Assembly (NCBI GenBank): GCA_003168215.1
Contig: PMSW01000013.1
Location: 5,293 to 55,722 of the forward strand
From: Actinomycetota bacterium
Lineage (GTDB): Bacteria; Actinomycetota; Actinomycetes; Streptosporangiales; Streptosporangiaceae
Direction of reading: 5' to 3'
Length of the DNA: 50,430 bases
A program made the translations under genes and the position numbers. The notes under the pieces are model-generated. The model saw nothing but the letters and a program-made list of their open reading frames with translations, was not told where the DNA came from and did no database searches. This document shows positions 12,665 through 14,694 of the stretch, one piece after another (the stretch's first letter is position 1; every line of letters starts with the position of its first letter).

Positions 12665-13708
12665 TCATCCGACGGTCACCGGCTGCGGGGCCTGGCTCAG
12701 CGTGCGGCCCATCAGCTGCGGCATCGTCGACATCACCGCGGCCAGCTCGCGGATGTCGCTGTCCACGAGCGCCTGGTCACCGTCGCACAATGCAGCGGCA
12801 GGCTCCGGGTGCACGTCCACGATGATCCCGTCTGCCCCGACCGCGATTGCCGCCCTGCTCAGCGGCAGCACAAGGTCGCGACGGCCGCCCGAGTGCGACG
12901 GATCCACGATCACCGGCAGGTGCGAAAGCCGCTGCGCGACCGGGACGGCGCTGATGTCGAGGGTGTTGCGGGTAGCCGTCTCGAAGGTCCGGATGCCGCG
13001 CTCGCAGAGCACGATGTCGAGGTTTCCGCGCTGGGCGATGTACTCGGCGGCCATCAGCCATTCCTCGATAGTGGCGTTCATCCCGCGCTTGAGCAGTACC
13101 GGCTTTCCGGCGGAGCCGACCGCCTGCAGCAGGGTGAAATTCTGCATGCTGCGGGTGCCGACCTGGAGCATGTCGGCGTAGGAGCAGACGAGATCGACGC
13201 TGGCCGGGTCGATGACCTCGGTCACTACCGGGAGCCCGGTCTCGGCACGGACCTCGGCCAGGATCTTCAGCCCGGCCTCGCCGAGGCCCTGGAATGCGTA
13301 CGGCGAGGTACGCGGCTTGAACGCGCCGCCGCGCAGCAGTGACGCCCCGGCCGCCTTGGCCATCCTGGCCGCGGCGACGGTCTGCTCCGGTGTCTCGACC
13401 GTGCACGGCCCGGCGATGACCGTGACGGTGCCTGGCCCGATCGGGACGCCGCCTACCTTGATCACCGACCGGCTCGGATGATTCTCCCTGCTGACCAGCT
13501 TGTACGGAACGGATATCCGCACGACGTCGCCGACGCCGGTTCTGCTGCGCAGATTCAGCGTGCCGAACTGCTCGATGTCGCCGACCAGGCCGATAATCGT
13601 CCTGGCGACCCCGCGGCTCACGAAGGCTTCCCCGCCCGCCGTGCGCACCAGATCCACGATCGTGTCAACGTCTGTCTGGGTGGCCTCTGGGGCCATCACG
13701 ACGACCAT
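12665..13708 (-). CDS. aroF: 3-deoxy-7-phosphoheptulonate (DAHP) synthase, AroF/AroA(beta) type
   Basis: VIAGPCTVETPEQTVAAARMAKAAGASLLRGGAFKPRTSPYAFQGLGEAGLKIL; N-terminal FeS/ACT-like DAHP synthase domain; ATG at 13708 preceded by GGGAGG. Confidence 0.9.
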   Translation of the reverse strand: MVVVMAPEATQTDVDTIVDLVRTAGGEAFVSRGVARTIIGLVGDIEQFGTLNLRSRTGVGDVVRISVPYKLVSRENHPSRSVIKVGGVPIGPGTVTVIAGPCTVETPEQTVAAARMAKAAGASLLRGGAFKPRTSPYAFQGLGEAGLKILAEVRAETGLPVVTEVIDPASVDLVCSYADMLQVGTRSMQNFTLLQAVGSAGKPVLLKRGMNATIEEWLMAAEYIAQRGNLDIVLCERGIRTFETATRNTLDISAVPVAQRLSHLPVIVDPSHSGGRRDLVLPLSRAAIAVGADGIIVDVHPEPAAALCDGDQALVDSDIRELAAVMSTMPQLMGRTLSQAPQPVTVG

Positions 13709-13737
13709 GTCACTACCTCCCTGTCTCCACAAATGAC

Positions 13738-13770
13738 GAAAGCCCCGGGCCGTTCCGGCCCGGGGCTTTC
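13738..13770 (-). terminator. Candidate attenuator terminator hairpin upstream of DAHP synthase
   Basis: Perfect 14-bp stem GAAAGCCCCGGGCC / GGCCCGGGGCTTTC with 5-nt loop between the leader-peptide stop and the aroF RBS; U-tract is weak (CTTTCGTCATTTG). Confidence 0.75.
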
Positions 13771-13785
13771 CTTACGTCGCTCGCG

Positions 13786-13860
13786 TCAGTGCAGCATCTG
13801 GCGGGCGACCGTCCGGAGTCCGGGCCGGTAGCAATAAAAGAACCAGTACTGGTTACGCAC
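13786..13860 (-). CDS. Aromatic amino acid leader peptide VRNQYWFFYCYRPGLRTVARQMLH (candidate attenuation leader of aroF)
   Basis: 24-codon ORF with 6 aromatic codons among codons 5-11 (Y W F F Y C Y), directly 5' of a terminator hairpin and aroF; TAGGCT -10-like hexamer at 13868-13873, 7 nt before GTG. Confidence 0.75.
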   Translation of the reverse strand: MRNQYWFFYCYRPGLRTVARQMLH

Positions 13861-14019
13861 GGGCGCAAGCCTAGCGCACATCCGGAACACCACAGCGCGG
13901 CGGGCACCAGGATCGGCCCGGATGGCGAGATGGCAAGATGGCTCCGCCCGCAGGAGCCGATGGTCGCCGGAGTGTCGCGCCCGGCGCGGCGCGAGGGCGC
14001 GAAGGGACAGATCAGCCGG

Positions 14020-14694
14020 ATGAGGCAGCCCGAGACCAGCAAACGGGCAGTCGGCGCGGGTCATCCTGCGACCGGCAGGACCGATCCGGGCGCGTCGCCG
14101 GAGAGCGGGCTGCCGCCCGGCCAGTACATCCCCGCCAGCTGGCCGGTCCTGCACTACGGGCGTGTTCCGGTCTTTCATCCGGAGAGCTGGGGCATGCAGG
14201 TGTTCGGCGCGACGGAGAACGGCCGTGATCACCGCTGGGGATGGGACGAGTTCAGGTCGCTGCCCAGCTGCCGGGTGATCGCCGACTTCCACTGCGTGAC
14301 CAAGTTCAGCATCCCGGGGATCGCCTGGGAGGGAGTGCCCGCGGCGGCGTTGCTGCGGGCAGTGCCACCTGCAGCAGAGGTAACTCATGTCATGGTCTGG
14401 GCTGATTTCGGCTACAGCGCCAACGTGCGAATCGCGGATTTCGCGGCGGATGACACCCTGTTCGCCACCCATCGCAACGGAACGGAACTCACTCCCGAGC
14501 ACGGCTACCCGGTCCGGCTGGTCGTACCCGGCCTGTACGCATGGAAGAGCGTCAAGTGGGTCAGGGCCGTGGAGTACCTGATGGCGGACAGGCGCGGGTT
14601 CTGGGAAGAGCGGGGCTATCACAACACGGCCGACCCCTGGCGCGAGCAGCGTTACTCCTACCAGGAGCGGCCCGGCGAGGGTCCGCCGCTCTGA
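14020..14694 (+). CDS. Sulfite oxidase-like molybdopterin oxidoreductase
   Basis: YGRVPVFHPESWGMQVFGATENG...WDEFRSLPSCRVIADFHCVTKFSIPGIAWEGVP...LVVPGLYAWKSVKWVRAVEYL; Mo-binding-fold features; start uncertain. Confidence 0.82.
   Translation: MRQPETSKRAVGAGHPATGRTDPGASPESGLPPGQYIPASWPVLHYGRVPVFHPESWGMQVFGATENGRDHRWGWDEFRSLPSCRVIADFHCVTKFSIPGIAWEGVPAAALLRAVPPAAEVTHVMVWADFGYSANVRIADFAADDTLFATHRNGTELTPEHGYPVRLVVPGLYAWKSVKWVRAVEYLMADRRGFWEERGYHNTADPWREQRYSYQERPGEGPPL

Follow-up and report, generated by a model that had tools for sequence, protein, structure and literature searches.

Organisation of the DAHP synthase locus

The DNA studied here, referred to as the window, is a whole stretch of 50,430 bases from an Actinomycetota bacterium of the Streptosporangiaceae (GCA_003168215.1, contig PMSW01000013.1, positions 5,293-55,722). 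It carries on its minus strand a gene for a type I DAHP synthase (DAHPS), the protein of which matches DAHP_synth_1 (3.3e-78) and has an N-terminal DAHP_snth_FXD domain. Between this gene and its divergent neighbor lie a short aromatic reading frame and a hairpin, with the following features:

13987-14694, plus strand: divergent neighbor, molybdopterin oxidoreductase (start codon position provisional)
13868-13873, minus strand: -10 box TAGGCT, ending 7 nt ahead of the leader start codon
13786-13860, minus strand: leader ORF VRNQYWFFYCYRPGLRTVARQMLH, GTG start, probably leaderless; kept in 64/80 DAHPS relatives and in ten further families
13837-13848, minus strand: predicted control codons TAC TGG TTC TTT (Y5 W6 F7 F8), 8-17 nt before segment 2
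13820-13828, minus strand: segment 2, CCGGCCCGG, antiterminator 5' arm, with co-varying pairing to segment 3
13805-13809, minus strand: inner antiterminator stem, 5' strand GUCGC, predicted by folding
13776-13780, minus strand: inner antiterminator stem, 3' strand GCGAC, predicted by folding
13755-13763, minus strand: segment 3, CCGGGCCGG, common to antiterminator and terminator
13738-13770, minus strand: terminator hairpin, perfect stem of 15 bp closing a GAA loop of 3 nt, then GTCATTTGT
13716-13720, minus strand: Shine-Dalgarno sequence GGAGG of the DAHP synthase gene
12665-13708, minus strand: predicted target, aroF-like gene for a type I DAHP synthase that has a ferredoxin-like domain, ATG at 13708

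The leader ORF extends from the GTG at 13860 to a TGA ending at 13786 (24 codons plus stop), and the position that an earlier, sequence-only reading had given for it, along with the succeeding aroF ribosome-binding site and ATG, was confirmed on the minus strand. No other ORF of 10-40 codons on either strand of the whole window has four or more aromatic residues in seven, and this one also has a perfect stem of at least 12 bp within 70 nt downstream. The terminator stem, previously counted as 14 bp, comprises 15 bp. The complementarity claimed between the segment after the aromatic codons and the terminator 5' arm and loop was exact, segment 2 (13828-13820) being the reverse complement of segment 3 (13763-13755) at every position. 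The leader stop codon falls between the two strands of the inner antiterminator stem. A scan for terminator-like sites returned two, against 0.3 expected by shuffling, and the hairpin at 13770-13738 was the strong one; its U-tract (GUCAUUUGU) is weak. No Rfam family reached its gathering score in the window or at related loci, the best match being F6 sRNA at 30.6 bits (cut-off 46), which covered the hairpin only. A search of a phage collection gave no match.

Conservation and co-variation in relatives

The upstream regions of the best 80 relatives of the DAHPS protein were scanned, and 64 of them contained an aromatic leader ORF, usually with a motif resembling YGDGP or YGYRP, and with a C-terminus that is basic. 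The 16 regions lacking one include two contigs that end just upstream and gene copies directly after another coding sequence; the latter are likely biosynthetic-cluster or operonic copies. An alignment was made from 63 of the 64 leaders plus the window. This comparison, which the sequence-only reading had put forward as one test able to refute its proposal, found the ORF, its position, and both helices conserved, so that the proposal passed.

In 63/64 leaders a -10-like TAnnnT ended 5-8 nt ahead of the start codon (ATG or GTG), an arrangement expected by chance in about 2.5% of cases per 11-nt interval searched. The T and G of the extended motif TnnGnTAnnnT were nearly invariant, and in the window T13878 and G13875 together with TAGGCT fit it. 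Because this -10 spacing before the start codon is conserved, the leader ORF is probably translated by leaderless initiation, as has been reported for several actinobacterial leader peptides (PMC8079986).

Pairing of segment 2 with segment 3 (columns 77-83 with 158-164) was preserved in 91.7% of cells, with 51 double-changed cells; none of 500 shuffles was as good, and shifting the register by one lowered the pairing to 54-58%. The terminator helix was paired in 98.7% of cells across the 64 sequences, with 65 double-changed cells and four pairs showing double changes. Mutually exclusive antiterminator and terminator folds, proposed earlier from the window by itself, are thus kept and co-varying in relatives. 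Column 162 is common to both helices, and at columns 79/162/177 the combination G-C-G occurs in 36 sequences, A-U-A in 25, and A-C-G in three, a three-way change that should be the pattern left by one arm taking part in two alternative helices. Most double changes fall between two sister groups, hence few independent events are represented; as these groups are clades, the three-way change traces back mostly to a single evolutionary event or a few.

Folding of the RNA before the terminator 3' arm paired the 5' arm with segment 2 in 62/64 sequences (mean z -2.2), and segment-2/arm pairs swapped between groups were weaker (-13.5 and -15.4 kcal/mol) than cognate ones (-18.1 kcal/mol). RNAalifold applied to the whole alignment recovered the terminator alone, since the groups align poorly with one another at the inner stem. 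Group-wise folds displayed the inner stem in three groups; they did not recover it in the mixed remainder and did so only incompletely in Streptosporangiaceae. Analogous inner stems were predicted in the Thermomonosporaceae, Nocardiopsaceae, and Streptomyces groups, and the two strands change together between groups (GGUCUG/CAGACC, GUUCGCC/GGCGAAC, GUCGC/GCGAC). A conserved segment 1:2 hairpin was not seen in the window's family, and a possible one was noted by eye in Streptomyces leaders.

These data bear on three other explanations. An ordinary terminator preceded by a meaningless ORF would be in keeping with the GC-rich hairpins common in the window's genome; however, the neighbor on the other side is divergent, so that the hairpin closes no upstream minus-strand gene and none there requires a terminator. 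The conserved ORF, spacing, and antiterminator co-variation already contradict this explanation, and we consider it extremely improbable. A metabolite- or tRNA-binding riboswitch, whether a T-box or another kind, is brought to mind by the T-boxes known upstream of ileS in Actinobacteria (PMC1262725), but it would have no use for the conserved aromatic codons and reading frame, and together with the Rfam result this makes it highly unlikely. Nascent-peptide arrest by the conserved leader C-terminus (TVAxQTLR, then stop), triggered by a free metabolite in the manner of TnaC, would account for C-terminal residues shared across genera. Those residues are, however, encoded by the co-changing inner stem and loop, so RNA structure can explain much of their conservation, and C-termini differ in other families; peptide arrest therefore appears very unlikely. 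Conservation in relatives is the decisive evidence that the element exceeds chance, and we judge with high confidence that it would function as a ribosome-mediated transcription attenuator of type I DAHP synthase.

Predicted switching and the amino acids probably sensed

To follow the predicted switch, stalled ribosomes were modelled on the assumption that they cover 11 nt beyond the A-site codon. With the ribosome placed on codon 5, 6, or 7 (Tyr, Trp, Phe), the full antiterminator remained at -40.5 kcal/mol; on codon 8 the value was -31.2 kcal/mol, and from codon 9 onward the antiterminator was lost. In RNA ending before the terminator 3' arm and carrying no ribosome, the antiterminator was the predicted fold, whereas in the full-length RNA the terminator always won by minimum free energy (-54.8 kcal/mol). 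The choice between them must then be kinetic and co-transcriptional, given that the terminator is energetically favored in the complete RNA.

We infer from these folds a kinetic competition that would answer to starvation. RNA polymerase would start at or beside the GTG, and a ribosome would load directly onto the leaderless ORF. Under shortage of charged Tyr-, Trp-, or Phe-tRNA, the ribosome would stall at codons 5-7 and leave segment 2 free to pair with segment 3 before the terminator 3' arm is made, allowing read-through into aroF. With all of these tRNAs charged, the ribosome would pass segment 2 and reach the stop codon inside the inner antiterminator hairpin, a placement found in the window and, by inspection, in sister groups; there it would unzip the antiterminator, the 15-bp terminator would form, and transcription would end. 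As the antiterminator is predicted to form without a ribosome, leader translation would be what triggers termination, and absence of translation would mean read-through, unlike in E. coli trp. Points against an attenuator are the energetic preference of the full-length RNA for the terminator, the antiterminator predicted for untranslated RNA, the small number of independent events behind the double changes, the poor U-tract, and a ribosome at the stop codon that leaves segment 2 uncovered, in contrast to E. coli trp.

The sequence-only reading had proposed a sensor of all three aromatic amino acids. We defined the stall zone as codons 8-20 nt before segment 2; a Phe codon occurred there in 64/64 leaders, Trp in 40/64, and Tyr in 21/64. 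All three were present in just four of the 64, the window among them with Y5, W6, and F7 at the right distance, and in 52/64 when the zone was widened to 2-20 nt. By their stall-zone codons, most leaders could sense Phe together with either Trp or Tyr. Sensing of all three is consequently plausible for the window, but not for the leader family as a whole.

An alternative is that the attenuator in practice responds mainly to Phe (and Trp) and does not sense Tyr, and that Tyr codons close to segment 2 serve the RNA structure or the peptide. In addition to the stall-zone counts, this is favored by the position of the usual Tyr codon, a conserved TAT so close to segment 2 (about 5 nt) that a ribosome stalled on it would cover that segment. 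It also agrees with Corynebacterium glutamicum, for which a review reports aroF transcription unaffected by Tyr availability despite the Tyr codon in the aroR leader (PMC11802643). Against it, the 17 nt that separate Y5 of the window from segment 2 are a distance at which this genome could well sense Tyr, and the footprint length behind the stall zone is an assumption. We place this alternative just short of an even chance. For the window's genome we infer that the effective codons would be Phe surely, Trp likely, and Tyr possibly.

The leaders also differ from their genes in codon usage. Among the 64 aligned leaders, TTT makes up 75/130 Phe codons and TAT 64/88 Tyr codons (in the window, for example, at 13834-13839), versus 0/352 and 4/285 in the DAHPS genes at the same loci. 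The idea that TTT and TAT keep the RNA open was rejected, as replacing all 139 with C-ending codons left the predicted structure unchanged (p 0.42 and 0.53). A role in decoding speed is a guess.

Related leaders and known systems

A covariance model built from the leader alignment gave a strong full-length match in 57/61 genera of the window's family. Matches of 25-45 bits were for the most part terminators alone or attenuators of other genes (thrS, valS) and were left uncounted unless the leader was read directly; antisense matches to the terminator palindrome were discarded. Outside the family, comparable leaders precede DAHPS in 24/60 further genomes from ten families of the class, always together with a GC-rich hairpin and a -10 close by, and the remaining genomes had none.

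Type I DAHPS was not found among the listed genomes of the Streptomyces-like family (f18), where the enzyme is of type II. There, the same leader type (FxFTYGNRPxGCHGRAA, then stop) with a terminator precedes a small chorismate mutase (L129:1121-1598, L130, L132, L133, L137, L138, L231-L245), and Trp occurs in the core of 2/21 of these leaders. This leader is absent from the S. lividans leader peptide list (PMC8079986). Four chorismate mutase loci in the window's family have short Phe/Tyr leaders lacking Trp (L265:620-1752, L269 on the minus strand, L260, and L261, the last counted although the gene directly after its leader is provisional), with leaders such as MAHYFTFTQPVPGGPVAGA and VYRRYDVFSKPAPEQPAART and terminators near chorismate-mutase-domain genes. 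At L265 and L269 the gene joins a partial DAHP_synth_1 domain to CM_2. No chorismate mutase was found in the window's own genome, an assembly that is 75% complete.

A Trp codon was present in 54/64 leaders of DAHPS versus 2/25 of those at chorismate mutase (Fisher p 2e-11, relatedness not taken into account). This contrast fits the biochemistry, because DAHPS feeds all three products, whereas chorismate mutase supplies Phe and Tyr alone. The chorismate mutase leaders also use TTT (21/41) and TAT (21/24). We suggest tentatively, at somewhat under even chances, that Actinomycetes possess class-wide, product-matched attenuators, with Phe/Trp/Tyr at DAHPS, Phe/Tyr at chorismate mutase, and WWW at trpE, the TTT/TAT codons of the DAHPS and chorismate mutase leaders possibly sharpening sensitivity to tRNA charging.

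Three further leaders were observed during the search. One, MKRAxxTTTPExVPAR followed by a stop, has Thr codons and a terminator before a gene reading as thrS (L122-L124, L126-L128, L139-L141) and is a probable Thr attenuator, comparable to thrL of S. lividans. Another, MQRHQHVVVPGLREGLVP, from a different class of the phylum (L272:1519-1660), has three Val codons and a GC-rich hairpin before a valS-like gene. Finally, a Streptomyces-like WWW leader, MFAHSTQNWWWTAHPAAH, similar to the S. lividans trpE leader, lies divergently beside a type II DAHP synthase gene (L249-L251).

The flux toward every aromatic compound, many actinomycete antibiotics among them, is set at DAHP synthase, and a conserved switch at this point that is absent from Rfam and from published surveys (PMC1262725, PMC8079986) would tell engineers what to remove. 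The element would also permit testing how one leader weighs three amino acids, and the chorismate mutase leaders, with their loss of Trp codons, offer a natural way to examine whether the codons of a leader follow the branch of the pathway.

The E. coli trpL and pheL attenuators combine a leader peptide, an antiterminator, and a terminator and follow the same logic as the element of the window. They are Shine-Dalgarno-led, respond to a single amino acid, and employ a 1:2 pause hairpin and masking of segment 2 by the stop-codon ribosome, neither of which is evident in the window. The trp attenuators of Corynebacterium and Streptomyces (PMC1262725, PMC8079986) share with it a short leaderless ORF (as in S. 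lividans trpL1; PMC8079986), a GC-rich terminator, and a competing antiterminator; in contrast, their leaders have only Trp codons (WWW) and control trpE or the trp operon, whereas the window's leader would act on the common pathway. Acholeplasma uORFC-13-1, upstream of aroF (PMC8632094), likewise places a uORF with Phe codons and a terminator before DAHPS, but belongs to a different phylum, is led by a ribosome-binding site, and has only Phe codons noted.

The closest known case is aroR-aroF of C. glutamicum, of the same class, in which a leader with aromatic codons precedes DAHPS and ribosome stalling raises transcription (Neshat 2014, J Biotechnol 190:55, via PMC11802643, PMC7356990). In these secondary descriptions AroR contains Phe-Tyr-Phe with no Trp reported, unlike the window, and the likeness drawn here follows the descriptions. 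A DAHPS attenuator as such is not new in Actinobacteria; at DAHPS in the present lineage the element is new. When attenuators in Actinobacteria were surveyed in 2005, other amino acid pathways yielded no conserved structures (PMC1262725). Of the eight leaders in the S. lividans list, not one belongs to DAHPS or to chorismate mutase (PMC8079986). Judged against the open-access literature, the mechanism is classical, and what is new is its broad distribution and the matching of leader codons to the target.
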